Below are positions 10,081-20,058 of a DNA stretch of 41,007 nt, piece after piece. Origin of the DNA: Flavobacteriales bacterium (lineage in GTDB: Bacteria; Bacteroidota; Bacteroidia; Flavobacteriales_D; Sanyastnellaceae). A model generated the notes under the pieces. That model did not search any database, was not told where the DNA came from, and was given only the letters and a program-made list of their open reading frames with translations. The DNA is taken from contig CANHSF010000005.1 of the NCBI GenBank assembly GCA_947463065.1, positions 1 to 41,007 of the forward strand, in the 5' to 3' direction. The position numbers and the translations under genes are program-made. The first letter of the stretch is position 1, and each line of letters opens with the position of its first letter.

Positions 10081-13000
10081 TTATTGACCAATCGAGGGTG
10101 GAACAGCAATTGTTTTTTTCTTGTTTGCTGAATCCTGTTGCCTCATCATCTCTTCGCGCATTTTTTCTTGTTTGAGCATTTCGCGATAGCTGGGAACTCC
10201 AAACTCCTCAAGGAATTTGGTTACACTTTCGTTCATTTCTAAAACAGAGGGATCGTTCGGTTTGAATTCCGAAGCCATGATGGCCAAGCGATCGATGATT
10301 TGAACCTGGGTGCGCACATCGCGTTCAATAGCGCCTTGTCGCTCTGGATCGAGGCTATTGTAAAAGGCCACCTCTTGTTTGGCGATATCAAATAGTCGTT
10401 TGCTCAAATCCAATGCGGCTGTGCTATCTCCGGCCTGATACAGCATGTCAGCCACCTGCCACATGATTTGAGGTTGTTCGTAAGGAACATTTTTCTCGGG
10501 CATCACTTCCAACGATTTTTTGAGAACATTTTGTGCGAGGTCAAGTTTGCCTTCTGCAATCAGTTGTTCTGCCAAATGGTTGAATTGGAGGCGCAGGTTG
10601 GTGGTCATTCTGCGATTGTTCTCGTCCATGTTGATCGGAATATCTGTGCGGTCCATGTTGCCCCATTGGAATTTGGTCATCATGTTTTCGTACATGATTT
10701 GTGAAGCAACACCGCCGTCGAGATTGGGGTTGGAGTTGCGCTTGTGTTTGATGGGGGTGAGGCGGTAGGCCAGACCTTCCAATTGGAAATATTCCTCCAG
10801 TCCCATATAGGCATCGCCTCCGGTGGTCACGGCAAAGTAAACCGGTCTGTTCCAATCCATATTGCTCAATAGGTCGAGCACCATCAATTGTGCTTTGGTG
10901 ATGTAGGTTTTCGGACGGCCATTGGCGTTGACCAATTGCCAAGTGATTTGATCCACCAACGAGTCCCCTTCATTGAGGTAAGGGCGGAAACGTTCCTTGG
11001 CGGCAGCATCTACTGGCATGGAGAATTTGTAAGTTGGCAGATAGGCGATTTTGCTTTTTCCATTTTCTTTGAATTTAGCATCGTCCAGCGCATAGGTCAT
11101 GGCTTCACTCACGGGCATGAAGTCTTTGGTTTGGTTGTCGGGATCGAGGAACAACACATCGCGCGTGCCCTGACGGTATTTTTGTTCGGGCATTTTGAAT
11201 GGGACGGGTGCTCCATCGTATGCGCGGCGTTTCATCTGATCGATATACCAGTCGGTATTCAGCAAAGACAAATTGACCACACGCACATCGGTACGAATGC
11301 CTTCAACCTCTTGTGCATACCACAGCGGGAAGGTATCGTTGTCGCCGTTGGTAAATATGATGGCGTCTTGTTGCAAGCTTTGCAGGTAGTTGATCGCCAT
11401 GGCAATACCTGTTCGGCGATTGGCGCGGCTGTGGTCGTCCCAGTTGGCGCTGCACAAGATGATCACCACAGGGAAGGCCAATGCAACTGGAATAATGCCT
11501 TTGAGAATGCTGTCGCCTTGAAGAGCTTTGCCAATCACCAGCATTAGAGCCATCAAAGCTGTAGCAACAAAAGCAATAAGCAACAAAGAAAGACCAAAGG
11601 CATTGGTGTCGCTAGCTACGAACTCCACTGCAGCGACAATACCAGCACCGCCAATGCTCATGCTTGCAATGGTGCTAAGTTGTTTGTGGGTCAGCGACAC
11701 GATGGCATGGTAAAGAGCGAACACACTCAATCCAATCCAAATGGTAAAGGCGTAGAATGAACCGGCAAAGGCATAATCGCGTTCCCTTGGCTGCAAGGGG
11801 GTTTGGTTCAAGTAAACCACAATGGCTGCTCCGGTTAGCAAGAACAATAAGGTAATTACAAAGAAATCTTTGGGTTTGTAGACCAACTGAAAAACCAAAC
11901 CAATAAGACCAAGAATCAAAGGCAAGTAATAGTATTTGTTCGCGCCTTTGTTGCTTTTCTCCATGTCGGTGAGTTGTTCGCGGTTGCCTATGCGCTCCTC
12001 GTCGATGGCATCAATACCACTGATCCAGTTGCCGTTTTGGAATTCACCGTGACTTTGATTGTCATTTTGACGTCCTGCAAAATTCCACATGAAGTAGCGC
12101 AAATACATCCAGCCAATCTGGTAATTGGAGAAGAATTGGAGCTCTTCGCTTTTGGATGGAACCATTTTTTCATAGTAGCGGTCCAATTTTTTGATCACGC
12201 TACGGATATCGGTCTCTTCGATTTCTTTGGGCAATTGACCGCCTGATTTGGAGTAATAATTGAGCGCGTATTCGTACAGCGCGATTTGTTGTTCATTGGC
12301 AGTGACTTTCTCTCTGCCGCGCTCGGTATTGTAGTCTTGGTAATTGCTCCATTCTTTGTATTCTGCAATGTGGCTGTCTTGGCTGCTGTGCATGCGCGGA
12401 AACCAACCGCTGAACTCGCTGCGGTAGTTTGGAATGGAGGCTTTTTTCTCTCCACTCTCGACGTACTCTTGCTCCAGACGAAGACTCTGATCGCTGTGTG
12501 TTGCAATGTATTGCTGAGCTTCATATTCGGTGCGGCACGAGATCACTCGTTTGTCGCGTTTGCCGTTCTCAATCACACTGAATGACTTCACATAAACCGG
12601 AGCGCCGTCCAAGTAAGGTTTTTCGAGATCGGTTGGCGTGTTGAAATAATTGCCGTGCAACAAAGGACGATCGCCATATTGTTCGCGGCTGAGATAGCTC
12701 AACAGTGCAAAGAGGTTCTCGGGATTGTTTTCATCCATTGGAGGATTGGCTTGCGAACGAACAATGACTGTGGCAAACGTGGTGTAACCGATAATGGCAA
12801 CAGCAATGGATAAAAGCGCGGTGTTGATCCAAGCCTTGCCTGCTCGATGACTGTACCAAATACCAAAGGTCAAAAGGGCGACAACAAGCACCGCATAGGT
12901 AATGGCCCCCGAATTGAAGGGCAAGTTGAACGAGTTCACGAACAGCAATTCAAAGTAGCCGGCCAATTTCACGAAATAGATGATGATACCCATTTGGAAC

Positions 13001-13683
13001 GCTCCAAGGATGAGCAAGGAGAGGATACCCGTAAGGACAATGCCCCATTTGGTGACCTCATGCTTTTTGAAATAGTAAACAAAACAGATGGCGGGGATGG
13101 CCAACAAATTCAAGAGATGGACACCGATAGAAAGCCCCATCAGATAAAAGATGAAAATGATCCATCTCAAGTCACCGCCTTGATCGGTGCTGCTTTCCCA
13201 TTTCAGGATGGCCCAAAATACTACAGCAGTAAATAAACTCGACATCGCGTAAACCTCTGCTTCAACGGCTGAAAACCAAAAGGTATCGGAGAATGTGTAC
13301 ACCAATCCACCGATCAATCCACTGCCGATAACAGCAGCAATTTGACCTGCAGAATATTTGGATTCATCCACGGAAATGAATTTTTTGGCAAAATGCGTAA
13401 TGGTCCAAAAGAGGAACATTATGGTGAGACCAGAACAGACTGCCGAGAGCAAATTGATCATGTACGCTACATTGGAAGGGTCTGCTCCAGCAGAAAAAAG
13501 GCGTCCGACCAACATGAAGAAGGGCGCTCCGGGCGGGTGGCCTACTTCCAATTTATACACCGATGAAATGAACTCGCCACAATCCCAAAAAGGCATCGTG
13601 GGTTCAAGAGTAAGAATGTAAACAATGGTCGACACGATGGCTAAGGCCCACCCCGTGATGACATTAATTTTTGAAAATTGCAT
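10081..13683 (-). CDS. DUF2723 family multispanning membrane protein (GT-C glycosyltransferase-like)
   Basis: A 1200-residue protein opening with 'ITGWALAIVSTIVYILTLEP' and 'FWDCGEFISSVYKLEVGHPP', the DUF2723 hallmark. The first 300 or so residues are a block of transmembrane helices. A hydrophilic loop of about 230 residues follows, then a second helical block near 580-770, then a long soluble C-terminal part ending in Lys/Gln-rich sequence with helical-repeat character ('LAQNVLKKSLEVMPEKN', TPR-like). DUF2723 proteins resemble protein O-mannosyltransferases of the GT-C fold; the Asp-Glu motif in the first periplasmic loop fits lipid-linked sugar transfer. Bacteroidota O-glycosylate exported proteins, so a role there is an inference, not shown. 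It is transcribed alone and ends in a strong terminator. Confidence 0.88.
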   Translation of the reverse strand: MQFSKINVITGWALAIVSTIVYILTLEPTMPFWDCGEFISSVYKLEVGHPPGAPFFMLVGRLFSAGADPSNVAYMINLLSAVCSGLTIMFLFWTITHFAKKFISVDESKYSAGQIAAVIGSGLIGGLVYTFSDTFWFSAVEAEVYAMSSLFTAVVFWAILKWESSTDQGGDLRWIIFIFYLMGLSIGVHLLNLLAIPAICFVYYFKKHEVTKWGIVLTGILSLLILGAFQMGIIIYFVKLAGYFELLFVNSFNLPFNSGAITYAVLVVALLTFGIWYSHRAGKAWINTALLSIAVAIIGYTTFATVIVRSQANPPMDENNPENLFALLSYLSREQYGDRPLLHGNYFNTPTDLEKPYLDGAPVYVKSFSVIENGKRDKRVISCRTEYEAQQYIATHSDQSLRLEQEYVESGEKKASIPNYRSEFSGWFPRMHSSQDSHIAEYKEWSNYQDYNTERGREKVTANEQQIALYEYALNYYSKSGGQLPKEIEETDIRSVIKKLDRYYEKMVPSKSEELQFFSNYQIGWMYLRYFMWNFAGRQNDNQSHGEFQNGNWISGIDAIDEERIGNREQLTDMEKSNKGANKYYYLPLILGLIGLVFQLVYKPKDFFVITLLFLLTGAAIVVYLNQTPLQPRERDYAFAGSFYAFTIWIGLSVFALYHAIVSLTHKQLSTIASMSIGGAGIVAAVEFVASDTNAFGLSLLLIAFVATALMALMLVIGKALQGDSILKGIIPVALAFPVVIILCSANWDDHSRANRRTGIAMAINYLQSLQQDAIIFTNGDNDTFPLWYAQEVEGIRTDVRVVNLSLLNTDWYIDQMKRRAYDGAPVPFKMPEQKYRQGTRDVLFLDPDNQTKDFMPVSEAMTYALDDAKFKENGKSKIAYLPTYKFSMPVDAAAKERFRPYLNEGDSLVDQITWQLVNANGRPKTYITKAQLMVLDLLSNMDWNRPVYFAVTTGGDAYMGLEEYFQLEGLAYRLTPIKHKRNSNPNLDGGVASQIMYENMMTKFQWGNMDRTDIPINMDENNRRMTTNLRLQFNHLAEQLIAEGKLDLAQNVLKKSLEVMPEKNVPYEQPQIMWQVADMLYQAGDSTAALDLSKRLFDIAKQEVAFYNSLDPERQGAIERDVRTQVQIIDRLAIMASEFKPNDPSVLEMNESVTKFLEEFGVPSYREMLKQEKMREEMMRQQDSANKKKTIAVPPSIGQ

Positions 13684-13930: not shown

Positions 13931-14770
13931 ATGAGTCGATCCTTTTTAAAATTCCCTACTCAAGAGTTGCCCGAACGAGGCAGACAGTTGAGCGAGAAAT
14001 ACCGAAACGCACATCCATTTCCACACATTTATTTCGATGATTTTTTTGATGCAGATGCGCTTCGTCCGGTAGTGGAAGAGTTTCCAGAACTTGGCAAGGA
14101 GAAGGCTGACATCAATTACGTCAACCCCAACGAAGATAAATTCGCATCCAAGGGCGAGGCACGCTTGGGACCTGCAGCCAAAGACTTGGTGCACTTGCTC
14201 AATTCCGAGCCGTTTTTGCAGTTTTTGCAAGAGATGACCGGAATTCAAGAAACCCTTATTCCTGACCCCTATCTCGAAGGTGGAGGATATCATCAGATAA
14301 AACCGGGCGGTTTCCTCAAGGTGCATGTGGATTTTCATAAGCACCGTGCGATGCAACTCGATCGCCGCATCAATGTTTTGGTTTATCTCAACGAGGATTG
14401 GCATGAGGAATATGGCGGTCATTTCGAATTGTGGGAAAGGGACATGAGCAAGTGTGCGGTGCGCATAGCTCCTCTGTTCAATCGAATGGCTATTTTTTCG
14501 ACCACCGATTACAGTTGGCACGGACATCCCGATCCACTGACGTGTCCGCCAGATCGAAGTCGTCGCAGCTTGGCTTTGTATTACTATACCAATGGCCGAC
14601 CCAACGATGAGATCAAGGCAGAAAACAGAAGCCGCATCACAACCACCTTCGTGGCACGCGATGGGCAAGATTCTTCCAAGATGAAGGTATTCAACGGTGT
14701 GGTGAATTTTGCAAACGATGTTATGCCGCCATTTCTCGTGCGTTGGATCAAAAAATTTAGAAATACCTGA
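13931..14770 (+). CDS. 2-oxoglutarate/Fe(II)-dependent oxygenase
   Basis: A 279-residue cytoplasmic protein of the prolyl-4-hydroxylase-like oxygenase superfamily. The N-terminal 'FPHIYFDDFFDADAL' is typical of these enzymes. The core has 'GGFLKVHVDFHKH' with the iron-binding His132-x-Asp134, then 'RRINVLVYLNEDW' and 'YGGHFELW'. A distal His (197 or 199) in 'SWHGHP' and Arg211/212 in 'RRSLALYYYT' complete the metal and 2-oxoglutarate sites. All catalytic elements are present, so it should be active. Its stop overlaps the methyltransferase start by one base (TGATG, 14768-14772), indicating translational coupling and probably a shared substrate. The substrate is unknown; related enzymes act on amino acid side chains, lipids or sugars. 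Confidence 0.87.
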   Translation: MSRSFLKFPTQELPERGRQLSEKYRNAHPFPHIYFDDFFDADALRPVVEEFPELGKEKADINYVNPNEDKFASKGEARLGPAAKDLVHLLNSEPFLQFLQEMTGIQETLIPDPYLEGGGYHQIKPGGFLKVHVDFHKHRAMQLDRRINVLVYLNEDWHEEYGGHFELWERDMSKCAVRIAPLFNRMAIFSTTDYSWHGHPDPLTCPPDRSRRSLALYYYTNGRPNDEIKAENRSRITTTFVARDGQDSSKMKVFNGVVNFANDVMPPFLVRWIKKFRNT

Positions 14771-15555
14771 TGGGACGTATTCCGACTTTGTATCCCCACG
14801 CCATCGATGTGGAACCGCACACCGAGTACAACCACTATCCGGTTCATTTGGAGCGGTTGCGGTGGCTGATCAAAACCATCGACGAGGAACGCCCTGCGGG
14901 AACAGTGCGCATCTTGGACGTGGGTTGCGGCACAGGCAACATCACTTTGCCTTTGGGATTGATTCCGCAAGCGCAGGTAGTGGGCATTGACATGTACCAG
15001 CCCAACATCGACGAGTGCAATCGCAAAAACACATATCCCAATGTGCGGCTTGAATTCGCCCGCCTCAATGATTTTGCGGTCGAGGATTTTGATTTCATCA
15101 TTTTCACCGAAGTACTCGAACATATTCCTCAATACGATACGATTCTTTTGGATTTGTCCCAACGCATGAAGCCCGGTGCTCAGATTCTGGTGACCATTCC
15201 CAACGGATGGGGGCCTTTTGAGTGGGCCATGACTCCAATGTATGTCATGCGACGAATGGGGTTGAACGGCTTCATCGCTAAGGTCAAACAATGGGTAGGT
15301 AAGAAGGAACCCTACGCACTTAATCAAGAGATCGATCCCCACGTCAATTTTTTCACGTGCAGGCAAATCCGAAGAGACAATCAACGACTCGGATTCACCA
15401 TGTTGGAATTTCGTAAGTCGTTTGTTTTGGCTCCAATTTTCGAAACCTATTTGCCATTTGTTCCGCTCACGCGTTTAGCCTATTGGGACAATCGATTGGC
15501 GCAAGTGCTTCCTGCTGCTTTGGCCAGCGGATGGTACTACCGCATCCGCAAGTAA
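14770..15555 (+). CDS. class I SAM-dependent methyltransferase
   Basis: A 261-residue protein with motif I 'ILDVGCGTGN' (48-57), an acidic residue after strand 2 in 'VVGIDMYQPN', and 'FIIFTEVLEHIP' as the post-motif. These place it in the Methyltransf_11/25-type class I fold. The C-terminal 60 residues are rich in aromatic and hydrophobic residues ('FETYLPFVPLTRLAYWDNRL'), which could sit against a membrane or a lipid-linked substrate. It starts on the last base of the oxygenase stop codon. With no recognisable pathway gene next to the pair, the substrate cannot be named. Methylation and hydroxylation of the same glycan, lipid or peptide is the simplest reading. Confidence 0.88.
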   Translation: MGRIPTLYPHAIDVEPHTEYNHYPVHLERLRWLIKTIDEERPAGTVRILDVGCGTGNITLPLGLIPQAQVVGIDMYQPNIDECNRKNTYPNVRLEFARLNDFAVEDFDFIIFTEVLEHIPQYDTILLDLSQRMKPGAQILVTIPNGWGPFEWAMTPMYVMRRMGLNGFIAKVKQWVGKKEPYALNQEIDPHVNFFTCRQIRRDNQRLGFTMLEFRKSFVLAPIFETYLPFVPLTRLAYWDNRLAQVLPAALASGWYYRIRK

Positions 15556-15592: not shown

Positions 15593-15623
15593 AAAAAAAA
15601 ACTTGGACACGGGGTCCAAGTTT
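15593..15623 (-). terminator. terminator between convergent methyltransferase and T9SS cargo genes
   Basis: Ten-pair stem (15599-15608 with 15614-15623), five-base loop. On the minus strand it runs into an unbroken T tract (complement of 15593-15600), so it ends the T9SS cargo gene efficiently. On the plus strand only three T residues follow, so it may also serve the methyltransferase, but weakly. Confidence 0.85.
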
Positions 15624-15666: not shown

Positions 15667-18600
15667 TCAATGTGTGACCTGTACTTTTTGCTGAGTCCAT
15701 CCGCGATCGGTCGTGATATGCAAATAATACATGCCTGAAGAAAGTTCGGACAGATCGACCGATCGTTCATTCGGTGGGATGATGCGCACCACTTGACCGA
15801 GATGATTGCACAATGCCATGCCTTTGACTTGCACCGAAAGGGGAATATTCCATTGCAAGAGATCATCAGCCGGGTTGGGGTATACGGTTATGGCAGCCGA
15901 TGCGTGCTCGTTTACAGAATCGGTGCAATCGTCATTGATGCCAAATTGATCCCCTCCATAAAAAGAGCCACTGAGAATTTCAACTTGTCCCACAAGGGCG
16001 TTGTTGCTCATAATCTCCGCGAAAATGCCAAGGGCCTCCAGAGGCTCGTTGGACACCAACTCAAGATTGTAGCATCCATCCGGAATGCACACGGGAATCG
16101 AATACGTATTGAACGGTGCAACGGCTTGCTCAAATTCCAAGAGGATTTCATCGCCCTGTGTAATGAGAATGTTCAGAACATCGCTCATATTGTCCAGTTG
16201 AAAGTCGGCGTTGAGGGTTATGATTGCTCCTGTATCATCGCAGTCGGTGTTGTCGATTGCAATGGTTTGGCAATAGGTGTTTTCGCACAAATTGGTGGCA
16301 ATTTCCAAACAAACTTCGTACGTGCCATTTTGCAAATATGTGTATTGGTTCAAGTCGGAAGCGGTTTCAAATGAATTGCCCAGACTCCACATGTAAGCGG
16401 CCACTCCGCCGCCGGTGTAACTCAGATTGTTCAATACTACTTGCCCGGGCAGTTCTGTGGTTTCGTACTCGAAATAGGCTTCGCACGTGCCATCAAAACA
16501 AGTGCTGTTGATGCCGAAGGCTAGTGTAAGGGAATAGGCATCTTGGTAGGTGATGAGCGCATTGTTCAATACCGACGAGCCATTCATCAATAGATCATAG
16601 GATAAACCAGCGCCAGCTAGAATGGGCAAGCACGAGTCAAAACTCAGGGTGTAGCAACCATCAGCCAGGCATTGAACCCACTCGTGGGTCATGAGATTCT
16701 CATCGAAAGATAGAATCTCAGTTAGTGTTTCATTGGTTTCAGTGTTGGTCAACACCACACCGATACAGTTGGTTCCACCGCTATTTATATCGCTCACCAG
16801 AACAAGTCCCACGTTGGTGCACACATTGCATTCGGGCACGATTACTTCAATGTTCAACTCAACATTCGGGCATTCTGCACTGGATGCATTTGCTGTTACC
16901 GCATATACACCGGCTTCATCGAAATGATGCATAATCGATTGATTATCGGTTACCACCTCGTTGCCGAATTGCCATACAATTGGACCCAATGCTGATCCTC
17001 CTGGTATTTCGAATAGGATGTCGCCGCATGTTTGGCCTGGTCCTGACCAAATCGAAAAATTGCAAGGCGTTTCGGCCTCCACAACGATGGTGGTGCAAGC
17101 TTCCAAAACACCGCAAGCATCGGTTTGAATATGACTGCACACCACGTAATCACCAGGTTCGGTGTAGTTGTGCAAGGCGACCCAAGTGGCTTCTAGGGTT
17201 GTTCCGTCACCGAAATCCCAGAACATGGGATATACTTCGGGATTGCCAATGGCAGTGAATTCGAACCACCCTGGCTCAATTTCCACGGCGTTCAGAGCTA
17301 GCGTGCAATCAACACCTTGGCAGTTGCTATTCAGGTTGAATTGCAGTTCCATGGTATAACCGTCGCCGTTACTGCCATAGGTTGTGCCTTCGAGGTTCCA
17401 GTTGCCGCTGGCAGTGTGAGCGAAGTAGGTATTGCCGTCAAACGATTGATTGCCCTGGAATACAAGCGTGTAGCAGTCTTCGGGCAGGCAATGCGAGTAA
17501 TACTGTGCGAACTCTGCACCCACAAAGTTGTATCCTCCCGATGCAACGGCTGAATTGCTGCTATTGTAAAGTGTCCATTCCACTTGATCCATTCCGCCAT
17601 AGCTCGGGTAGGAGGTGAAACTGAATGCGACCATGTCACAATCCAAGGTACAATCGCCATTTACCGAAATCAATATTTCATAGCCATAGTTGCCCGCGTT
17701 GTTAATTGCGTCGATGCTGATGATGTCGGCTTGGCTACCAATGATAGGTGTTACAGCATTCAGATCAAAAGGCGAGTTGGTCATGGCGGTAATCAGGTAA
17801 CAGCCATTTTCGAGGCATACGTTGTGGTCATAATACGGATCATTGACGCTGTATTGTGCCATGCCCGATTCGATTGCTTCCATATCTGAGGCATTGTAGA
17901 TATTCCAGGCCAAAAAGCTTGGTCCGCCCTCGTTGATGAAACTGTCGAAACCGAATGAGAGTTCGGTACAGGTGGTGCAGTTGTTGATCTCAACTTCCTC
18001 GCAAACCTCGACGGGGTTTTCGCAGCCCTCGCCCTCATACCAGGCGCAAATGGGATACACCCCGTTTTGCAATTCTAATGTAATGACATGGCCGATCATA
18101 CCGGTCTCAACACCTCCGATGGACCAGTGGATTTCGGCATTGGGCGAAGAGGATGAGGCCTGCAATATGGCCAGTCCGCAGACGGTGGGTATTTGCTCGA
18201 TGTTTAAGCTGCAGGTTTCAGGACAGTTGACCAATATGGTTTCGCACAGCTCTACGGCTTCGGGACAATAATCTGAACTGTAAAGAGCGCACACCTCGTA
18301 TTCACCGCTCGCAGCATATTCGTGCGAGCTGAAGTGGCCGCCATCTGCAATGGTGCCATCCCCGTAATTCCATAATACCGATTCTCCAGGAGTTAATTCG
18401 CCGACCTCAAAATTCCAAGTTGAACAGGCGTTGCTTTCAGCGGCATACATGGAAGTTGGGCACACAATGGTGTTGAAACAGTCTTCAATCGTTACCACTG
18501 CGTAAAGCGTGATGTTATTGGGACACGTTCCATCGCTGATCAAGGCTGTTACCGTATACACGCCCGGTGTATCATAGTAGTGATCGGCTACTGTGGTTGC

Positions 18601-19914
18601 CGTTGTGGTGGATGGGCCATCGCCAAAATTCCAACTCACCGGCGCATTGTTTGGGTTGTTGCCGCCTTCGAAATGGACATGTCCGCATTGCGATTCATAG
18701 GTCAAATAGAGTTCGCCAACACAATCCCCATTGCCTGTTCCCCCGCATGGAGCAACAGCGATGGTGGTGCACAATTCGATACCGTCTTGACAGTAGGCGT
18801 TCCATGCTTGCACACAAACTTGGTAAACACCCAACGAGTCGTAAACATGCGATACATTGTTTTGACCCACTGCACCGGCGCCATCACCAAAGTCCCATAC
18901 GATATTGCCAAATGCACCCATGTTGTTGACATGAAAAACATAGCCGTGACAACCGTTAGGCTCAACGGAAATAATATCTGGGCAGTTGCTGTTTGAACAA
19001 TCGGGAGCCTCAAGTTCGATGCAAATGGTGGTGGAGCTTTCGCACGTGGCGCTTGCATGGGCCAAGCATATTTGATGCGGACCGGGCGTTTCGAATACCA
19101 CAGACCAATCTGCAGAAGTGCTTTCTATGGCATCGTCAACAAACCAATAATTGGCACCGGACTCTTGTCCATTGTGCGATAGGCTGTAATGCCCGCAAAG
19201 GTCTCCCGGAGCAATGATAATCTCGTTGGGACAACCGCTGTTGTTGGGCACCGTATTCATTTCAATAGCAATGCAGGTATCGGATACACATACGGGAATG
19301 TCACCGTCGTAAAGGGCTTGAAACAAACATACCTCGTATGTGCCATTGGCGGTATAGGTGTGTGCGGGAGCAAAGCCTTGGGTGTTGGTGTTATCGCCAT
19401 AATCCCAAGCAAACAAGCTAGTGAATCCAGTGGTGGGTGTGCTGTTGTTGGTCACGGCAAGCACGCCATCATCTTGAACAGTAGGAATAAAAGAAGCTTG
19501 GCATGCGATGCTTTCCAAAGAAACACAGAAGCCAAAGGAGAAGGGAATGTTTTGCGAGGTTTGGAAGATGTTGAAGCTGGAGGTGTTCTCGCCAATCACC
19601 TCGAAAGATTGAAGGTGCTGGGCTGTTCCAAATCCTGCGGTATAACTGAATGTGGTAAAATAACATCCTTCGGGCAAGCACAGTTCATGGGTGAGTGTGC
19701 TGGGCGCTCCGTTGAGCGAAATGGTGCCTTGCGATTGTATTTCCTCCATTTCATTGTATATCGTATAATTCACGGTATTGACAATTTGGGCAACACAGCA
19801 AGTGGTGAATTGAAATGCAGCGGGCAGTGAGCCATCTGGACATTGAGCAGAAGCCGGACGATGGAGGCCACACAAAAATGCAATGCTCAGAAGAGATAGG
19901 AGGAGGTGTTTCAT
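15667..19914 (-). CDS. giant PKD-repeat secreted protein with T9SS type A sorting domain
   Basis: I chose ATG 19914, which starts a signal peptide (MKHLLLSLLSIAFLCG..ASAQ); the frame extends to a TTG at 19971 without leader character. The 1415-residue protein is a T9SS cargo: the final 75 residues (from 'ITVYPNPADD', 1342) are a type A sorting domain with 'LSSGMYYLHI'. PKD-type sandwiches are marked by 'DYGD' (171), 'DFGDG' (341), 'NFGDG' (429), 'NYGDG' (516), 'DFGDG' (900) and weaker copies near 257, 598, 982 and 1177. Between them are five copies of a different Cys-containing module. Cys is unusually frequent, mostly paired, suggesting disulfides outside the cell. No catalytic domain is visible. 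Likely a surface-attached or secreted adhesin or matrix protein; the ligand is unknown. Confidence 0.9.
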   Translation of the reverse strand: MKHLLLSLLSIAFLCGLHRPASAQCPDGSLPAAFQFTTCCVAQIVNTVNYTIYNEMEEIQSQGTISLNGAPSTLTHELCLPEGCYFTTFSYTAGFGTAQHLQSFEVIGENTSSFNIFQTSQNIPFSFGFCVSLESIACQASFIPTVQDDGVLAVTNNSTPTTGFTSLFAWDYGDNTNTQGFAPAHTYTANGTYEVCLFQALYDGDIPVCVSDTCIAIEMNTVPNNSGCPNEIIIAPGDLCGHYSLSHNGQESGANYWFVDDAIESTSADWSVVFETPGPHQICLAHASATCESSTTICIELEAPDCSNSNCPDIISVEPNGCHGYVFHVNNMGAFGNIVWDFGDGAGAVGQNNVSHVYDSLGVYQVCVQAWNAYCQDGIELCTTIAVAPCGGTGNGDCVGELYLTYESQCGHVHFEGGNNPNNAPVSWNFGDGPSTTTATTVADHYYDTPGVYTVTALISDGTCPNNITLYAVVTIEDCFNTIVCPTSMYAAESNACSTWNFEVGELTPGESVLWNYGDGTIADGGHFSSHEYAASGEYEVCALYSSDYCPEAVELCETILVNCPETCSLNIEQIPTVCGLAILQASSSSPNAEIHWSIGGVETGMIGHVITLELQNGVYPICAWYEGEGCENPVEVCEEVEINNCTTCTELSFGFDSFINEGGPSFLAWNIYNASDMEAIESGMAQYSVNDPYYDHNVCLENGCYLITAMTNSPFDLNAVTPIIGSQADIISIDAINNAGNYGYEILISVNGDCTLDCDMVAFSFTSYPSYGGMDQVEWTLYNSSNSAVASGGYNFVGAEFAQYYSHCLPEDCYTLVFQGNQSFDGNTYFAHTASGNWNLEGTTYGSNGDGYTMELQFNLNSNCQGVDCTLALNAVEIEPGWFEFTAIGNPEVYPMFWDFGDGTTLEATWVALHNYTEPGDYVVCSHIQTDACGVLEACTTIVVEAETPCNFSIWSGPGQTCGDILFEIPGGSALGPIVWQFGNEVVTDNQSIMHHFDEAGVYAVTANASSAECPNVELNIEVIVPECNVCTNVGLVLVSDINSGGTNCIGVVLTNTETNETLTEILSFDENLMTHEWVQCLADGCYTLSFDSCLPILAGAGLSYDLLMNGSSVLNNALITYQDAYSLTLAFGINSTCFDGTCEAYFEYETTELPGQVVLNNLSYTGGGVAAYMWSLGNSFETASDLNQYTYLQNGTYEVCLEIATNLCENTYCQTIAIDNTDCDDTGAIITLNADFQLDNMSDVLNILITQGDEILLEFEQAVAPFNTYSIPVCIPDGCYNLELVSNEPLEALGIFAEIMSNNALVGQVEILSGSFYGGDQFGINDDCTDSVNEHASAAITVYPNPADDLLQWNIPLSVQVKGMALCNHLGQVVRIIPPNERSVDLSELSSGMYYLHITTDRGWTQQKVQVTH
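15916..19797 (-). repeat. five copies of a Cys-bearing ~100-residue module within the T9SS cargo
   Basis: Each copy contains a C-[LI]-x-x-[GD]-C-Y core preceded by 'W-x-[IL]-Y-N' or an equivalent strand and followed by a second Cys about 45-60 residues later. Cores are at protein residues 79-85 (CLPEGCY), 700-706 (CLENGCY), 809-815 (CLPEDCY), 1082-1088 (CLADGCY) and 1276-1282 (CIPDGCY). Approximate module spans on DNA are 19797-19525, 17964-17641, 17640-17311, 16827-16483 and 16233-15916. The copies are diverged in DNA, so this is an old protein-level duplication. Confidence 0.75.
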
Positions 19915-20058
19915 TGGTTTTGGTCTTGGTAAAGTAAGGACGCAACACTGGTTTAAATGGTTGCAATCCAATTTTATAGTGCATTTCGAAACGTCGATCG
20001 AGGACGAATGGAAAGAAGCCTTTTCTGTCTTTGGTCAACGCAGAATAGAGGGCCTCGC

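Follow-up and report, generated by a model that had tools for sequence, protein, structure and literature searches.

The window, by which we mean the whole stretch of 41,007 nucleotides analysed here, carries a genuine pair of intact genes encoding a 2-oxoglutarate (2OG)/Fe(II) oxygenase (OX) and a SAM methyltransferase (MT). With confidence evenly balanced for and against, we propose that the pair is a glycan-tailoring module, hydroxylating and then O-methylating a sugar, lipid-linked or part of a nascent glycan, on which the neighbouring GT-C protein acts. This proposal builds on the observed structure and motifs of the two genes, on the conservation of the pair and its site of insertion, and on the recurrence of glycosyltransferase genes and of DUF2723 near OX. 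The features concerned are as follows.

10081 to 13683, minus strand: DUF2723/TMEM260-like GT-C gene, 1200 aa, divergent from the pair and its proposed functional partner (PF11028; match to 9rql; adjoins OX in four lineages)
13931 to 14770, plus strand: OX, 2OG/Fe(II) oxygenase, 279 aa, ATG start (PF13640; HxD..H..RxS; fold model)
14768 to 14772, plus strand: TGATG, overlap of the OX stop with the MT start, read from the sequence
14770 to 15555, plus strand: MT, class I SAM methyltransferase, 261 aa, ATG start (Methyltransf_23; class I fold)
15599 to 15623, minus strand: terminator-like stem in the MT-cargo intergenic region (pattern scan)
15667 to 19971, minus strand: PKD-rich T9SS cargo gene, convergent with the pair (PKD_4 and Por_Secre_tail, the T9SS type A sorting domain)

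The TGA stop codon of OX (14768-14770) and the ATG start codon of MT (14770-14772) have one base in common, and the translational coupling that a sequence-only reading had deduced from this overlap is borne out by the sequence and by the tight junction of the pair in all eight genomes that hold it. The same reading had described the metal, 2OG and SAM motifs as intact, and rightly so: H132 and D134 (HxD), H197, and R211 and S213 (RxS) of OX are invariant in 31 of 31 aligned OX sequences, the window included, and MT displays motif I, LDVGCGTG, at residues 49-56. As in these families generally, HxD...H would be the iron triad and the Arg of RxS would bind 2OG; in the phmmer alignment, a His of the oxygenase PolD aligns with H197. 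Pfam assigns OX to PF13640 (2OG-FeII_Oxy_3; E 6.4e-20, 72.4 bits for a cut-off of 27) and MT to Methyltransf_23 (E 6.4e-18, 65.5 bits, cut-off 27). The NCBIfam oxygenase models score below their cut-offs for OX (YhhC, 23.7 bits of 150; FlmC, 19.6 of 240), as do the named methyltransferase families for MT (UbiG, TIGR01983, 61.3 bits versus 102.95, and MetW). No signal peptide is evident in OX on inspection by eye, no site exceeds chance in a promoter search near the pair, and the terminator-like sites detected by pattern scan in this region are no commoner than in shuffled sequences. The MT of genome G057 (L018:3805-4788) bears an insert of about 65 residues ahead of motif I that is not found in close relatives.

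On both sides of the pair, Pfam and NCBIfam matches confirm the flanks as first described, a divergent DUF2723 gene and a convergent T9SS cargo gene. The DUF2723 protein matches PF11028 with 249.7 bits for a cut-off of 24.2 and, over residues 15-211, the TMEM260 structure 9rql (E 1.4e-16). PF11028 is present in 393 of 395 genomes of the phylum and in 171/171 genera, as well as in one of 14 control genomes (a Bacteroides), and usually occurs once per genome (28 copies counted across 20 genomes). The cargo ORF is listed from a TTG codon and its real start is probably a Met located 20 codons further in. According to PMC11292533, TMEM260 attaches O-mannose to Ig-like IPT domains and belongs to CAZy family GT117; as it glycosylates Ig-like domains, the PKD-type T9SS cargo encoded upstream of DUF2723 may be a substrate of the DUF2723 protein. 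The known D-S/T-x O-glycosylation motif is not enriched in the cargo protein (2 sites versus 4.5 expected), and the idea of this protein as a target of that motif was set aside. In the searchable literature, we found no paper on DUF2723 and none connecting TMEM260 with the search term Bacteroid.

The survey of 150 genomes, own genome included, recovered OX at E 1e-20 in 13 of them and MT in 8, the latter belonging to two genera and every one of them also encoding OX. The adjacency of the two genes is therefore not a peculiarity of this genome. In all eight, the pair lies between DUF2723 and the T9SS cargo gene, the two genes overlapping by one base (TRATG) in four genomes and standing 4-8 bases apart in the remaining four. 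These genomes are part of family f1, where OX is present in nine genomes and MT in eight of the nine. Across the phylum, 17 of 395 genomes carry OX; leaving aside the genome of the window, MT has relatives of only 31-34% identity, in 8 of 395; in the methyltransferase tree, MT forms a clade of its own (8 rows, support 99/100). Comparison of two genome pairs shows both genes to be under purifying selection, with pN of 0.04-0.08 for OX and 0.08-0.15 for MT and with pS of 0.75-0.78, near saturation, for both.

The f1 genomes devoid of OX inform on the origin of the pair. A cargo-like gene is found upstream of DUF2723 in 10 of 12 such regions (L241-L252), the exceptions being G003, where a 175-aa gene adjoins DUF2723, and G020, which has no cargo match. 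Since the OX-less genomes mostly keep the order cargo then DUF2723, OX-MT was gained at that junction, in one clade. The OX-bearing f1 genomes group as a single clade in the DUF2723 tree (SH-aLRT 99), including the ninth genome, G008, where OX stands alone at the same junction, in the opposite orientation and without MT. The OX of G008 is 62-65% identical to the other f1 OX proteins and groups elsewhere in the OX tree. We considered an independent second insertion in this genome and rejected it: the AU test does not reject a single group of f1 OX proteins (p 0.287), and given the single OX-bearing clade of the DUF2723 tree, G008 can be explained by one gain, with MT lost and OX inverted later.

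The genes that recur beside OX in other genomes lend support to a glycan-related role. In a tree of 77 OX proteins, from which 12 duplicate or overlapping loci were left out, DUF2723 lies at most two genes from OX in 16 rows, which fall in four separated lineages as counted by eye, the tree itself requiring at least five changes of that label among the 77 rows. These lineages are the clade of the window, L039, L136/L138, and the group L084, L085, L160 and L168; three of the four come from the genome surveys and L039 from a pattern scan. In L039, OX is followed by a different methyltransferase and by DUF2723; in the last group, the order is DUF2723, OX and a hexapeptide-type gene overlapping or abutting OX, this gene being lpxA in L085 (NCBIfam, 354 bits).

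A second context is found in Chitinophagaceae, where OX relatives of 50-55% identity belong to clusters ordered UbiA, FAD oxidase, SDR, HAD, OX, GT4, methyltransferase or PMT_2, and T9SS PKD cargo. The FAD oxidase resembles DprE1 (E 9.5e-90) and UbiA decaprenyl-phosphate phosphoribosyltransferase (DPPR synthase; E 1.6e-42), and the SDR reaches 188 bits against the DprE2 model, below its cut-off of 250. This DprE-type cluster, recognisable as a polyprenyl-phosphate-pentose cluster of mycobacterial type and accompanied by phosphatase, oxygenase, GT4 and T9SS PKD cargo, can be seen at L033:4243-11245 and also in L031, L038, L143, L145, L146, L148 and L149; the OX of Terrimonas ginsenosidimutans NA20 (L035) is likewise within a DprE-type cluster. 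Our literature search returned nothing connecting DprE1 and decaprenyl with Bacteroidetes. Furthermore, PMT_2 proteins adjoin OX in L150, L151 and L152, and OX occurs in polysaccharide loci of several Bacteroidota, of Nitrospina and of a Methylococcaceae record. In the Streptomyces phage Zuko (MN204493.1; L217:3823-6315), an operon of overlapping or abutting genes encodes OX, a glycosyltransferase, a methyltransferase and another glycosyltransferase; the OX homologue of this phage is annotated as hypothetical. In the OX tree, the sequences of L014 (titled Chryseobacterium gleum MAG) and L029 (titled Alphaproteobacteria MAG) group with other Bacteroidota, and these labels may be wrong.

The pair had initially been presented as not part of a known pathway. 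This holds for the locus of the window, which lacks the DprE1 and DPPR synthase genes met beside OX in Chitinophagaceae (e.g. L033), but not for the OX family, whose relatives sit in this cluster and in polysaccharide loci. Nor are OX homologues consistently embedded in a characterised pathway, many of them having housekeeping neighbours, and for a sizeable part of the family housekeeping neighbours only. The statement that no substrate can be read from the sequence was too pessimistic, the recurring third genes being glycosyltransferases, among them GT-C proteins of the type using polyprenyl-phosphate sugars.

The association was quantified on the genes located at most two genes from OX in 41 loci, hand-picked at about one per genus (157 ORFs, of which 4 below 110 aa were dropped, leaving 153; L080 and L154, where OX was missed by ORF calling, were left out). 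The controls were 160 ORFs from 20 regions at hand-picked coordinates in 20 OX-holding genomes, of which 150 were used and 10 dropped. Proteins above 420 aa were trimmed to their first 420 residues for the Pfam scan of neighbours. Control families outside the 25 commonest listed have a count of at most 2, so 2 was taken as the worst case. Glycos_transf_1 accounts for 14/153 neighbours of OX versus at most 2/150 random genes (Fisher p 0.002). Glycos_transf_2 (7/153, p 0.09) and TMEM260-like proteins (6/153, p 0.15) are not significant on their own against the worst-case control of 2. The 153 neighbours also include at least four Acyl_transf_3, at least three Wzy_C and at least three UbiA proteins, and no glycosyltransferase family is among the 25 commonest listed in the 150 random genes. 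From the copy number of DUF2723 (28 in 20 genomes), the chance of its lying near a given OX is about 0.15%, which yields p ~5e-7 for four lineages among 41 loci, the p values being approximate since the loci are related and one DUF2723 lineage comes from the pattern scan.

Methyltransferases are not enriched near OX (7/153 versus 4/150, Fisher p 0.28), so that their enrichment was discarded as support for the pair across the OX family. MTa/MTb-type methyltransferases are same-strand neighbours of OX in 15 of the 77 rows, with at least four changes on the tree, and distant relatives of MT (28-34% identity) adjoin glycosyltransferase-like genes in several genomes. In the deep family f40, a methyltransferase gene lies upstream of an OX paralogue (L086:8743-9555, L087:2379-3191 and L166:8756-9583), and these loci adjoin an unannotated protein of 400 aa without Pfam or NCBIfam match.

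We therefore envisage the following scheme, in conditional terms throughout. OX would be a cytoplasmic 2OG/Fe(II) hydroxylase that hydroxylates or otherwise oxidises a sugar, which would most likely be borne at this step by a polyprenyl-phosphate carrier or a growing lipid-linked glycan; its cosubstrate 2OG is cytosolic. MT would then O-methylate the product of OX, and a GT-C, here the adjacent TMEM260-like DUF2723 protein, would transfer the modified sugar to proteins destined for export or to glycans of the surface. We infer the sugar substrate, its lipid linkage, the order of hydroxylation before methylation and the use of the product by DUF2723. The sequence-only reading had suggested a tailoring step on a surface glycan, a lipid or an exported peptide, and it is the glycan that the neighbourhoods in other genomes back, the lipid and the peptide being possible with less support. 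Several points count against glycan tailoring, namely the housekeeping neighbours, the lack of methyltransferase enrichment, the Glycos_transf_2 and TMEM260-like counts that fall short of significance, the fold matches to protein hydroxylases and the absence of MT from G008.

The chief rival, which we hold to be unlikely though still to be reckoned with, is that OX hydroxylates a protein, either cytosolic, as do OGFOD1/Tpa1, or exported and modified prior to secretion, with MT acting on the same protein; in the exported case, OX would create an acceptor hydroxyl open to glycosylation by DUF2723. OGFOD1/Tpa1 are 2OG enzymes that hydroxylate proline in a ribosomal protein, and PHD2 also hydroxylates a protein. 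These are the best structural matches of the OX model (pLDDT 86), with OGFOD1/Tpa1 at Z 21.7 (rmsd 2.6-2.8 over 213-217 residues) and PHD2 at Z ~19, ahead of PasI/PolD at Z 18.6-18.8. In addition, the DUF2723 protein has a relative that O-mannosylates proteins, and its gene adjoins one for an exported protein. However, the patchy occurrence of OX across the phylum would be odd for the modification of a translation protein, and the OX relatives of polysaccharide and lipid-linked-sugar loci and of the phage glycosyltransferase operon have no evident protein substrate. Moreover, OX is a single-domain protein of 279 aa, whereas OGFOD1/Tpa1 (457-563 aa) possess a second, C-terminal domain, which OX lacks. 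Sequence comparison with the PDB ranks PolD (E 1e-5) and PasI (E 0.003) first for OX, and the latter was solved, according to the title of the structure, with a sugar-like nucleoside acid phosphate. The modelled fold of OX is compatible with protein and sugar substrates alike, and gene context favours sugars.

Two further explanations come next. OX and MT may be independent enzymes sharing an operon by history and acting on different target molecules, which we regard as doubtful. The background-level frequency of methyltransferase neighbours across the OX family, the dispersal of OX-adjacent methyltransferases over separate clades and the retention of OX alone in G008 speak in its favour. Against it, the close MT always has OX directly upstream, at most 8 bases apart, in 8/8 genomes; OX also pairs with a different methyltransferase, in one gene order in L092 and in the other in L021, L028 and L039; and a methyltransferase gene is part of the phage operon together with OX. 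Slightly more doubtful still is a role in which the pair would hydroxylate and methylate a lipid, for instance lipid A or a unit of the LPS core, as could be surmised from the hexapeptide-type gene that follows OX in L084, L085, L160 and L168, and from titles in a reference list on 2OG dioxygenases acting on the Kdo of LPS. The lpxA link is limited to one family, f40, while the other loci indicate glycosyltransferases. The aromatic, membrane-friendly C-terminus attributed to MT finds no support in the model (pLDDT 79), where it forms the last beta strand (254-260; final pLDDT blocks of 88 and 95); the fold search with MT returned generic class I methyltransferases only.

Glycan tailoring would provide OX-MT, otherwise an anonymous pair, with a role open to testing, and would connect a 2OG oxygenase family of patchy occurrence with glycosyltransferase loci, among them those of GT-C proteins of the polyprenyl-phosphate-sugar type. 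It also draws attention to DUF2723. As described in a 2025 review (PMC12871550), the common part of Bacteroidota O-glycans starts with mannose, the enzymes of its synthesis and transfer are undiscovered, and the pathway resembles eukaryotic O-mannosylation; methyl groups are common on these glycans, and the review states as a gap where and when they are added. DUF2723 may thus be a candidate for the core O-mannosylation enzyme of Bacteroidota, within the gap that this review delineates around the machinery making and attaching the mannose-containing core. A bolder conjecture, which we deem rather improbable, is that DUF2723 is the missing starter of the mannose-based protein O-glycosylation of the phylum and OX-MT a lineage-specific module that hydroxylates and O-methylates either the polyprenyl-phosphate sugar used by DUF2723 as donor or the sugar first bound to the protein; if true, this would define a 2OG-oxygenase branch of bacterial protein O-mannosylation. 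The absence of D-S/T-x excess in the adjacent cargo argues against a simple version of DUF2723 as the core enzyme.

Our search of the literature, at the level of titles and abstract openings, found no link of 2OG-Fe oxygenases with glycosyltransferases, polysaccharides or methyltransferases. The DUF2723 protein has in common with the human protein O-mannosyltransferase TMEM260 the N-terminal GT-C module (PF11028), but is bacterial and longer (1200 versus 729 aa), and its glycosyltransferase role is predicted. OX shares the double-stranded beta-helix fold of OGFOD1/Tpa1, with 18-20% identity, and differs from them by its shorter chain and its glycan gene contexts. PolD and PasI (9blq and 9ei6), although the best sequence matches among solved 2OG oxygenases, are only weakly similar (16-23% identity), and their pathway, presumably that of nucleoside antibiotics, is not evident here. 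MT belongs to the same Pfam family as the Methyltransf_23 enzymes of polysaccharide loci, from which it is set apart by its own clade and its pairing with OX. Counterparts of the mycobacterial decaprenyl-phosphate-arabinose pathway (DprE1, DprE2 and DPPR synthase) cluster with OX homologues in Chitinophagaceae, where OX and GT4 are additions to it, whereas the window has no such genes at its locus. Glycan methyltransferases are common. NCBIfam gave no family match for OX. Kdo hydroxylase, compared here by analogy from titles in a reference list, provides a precedent for a 2OG dioxygenase acting on a sugar of a lipid-linked glycan, the Kdo of LPS, alike to OX in principle.
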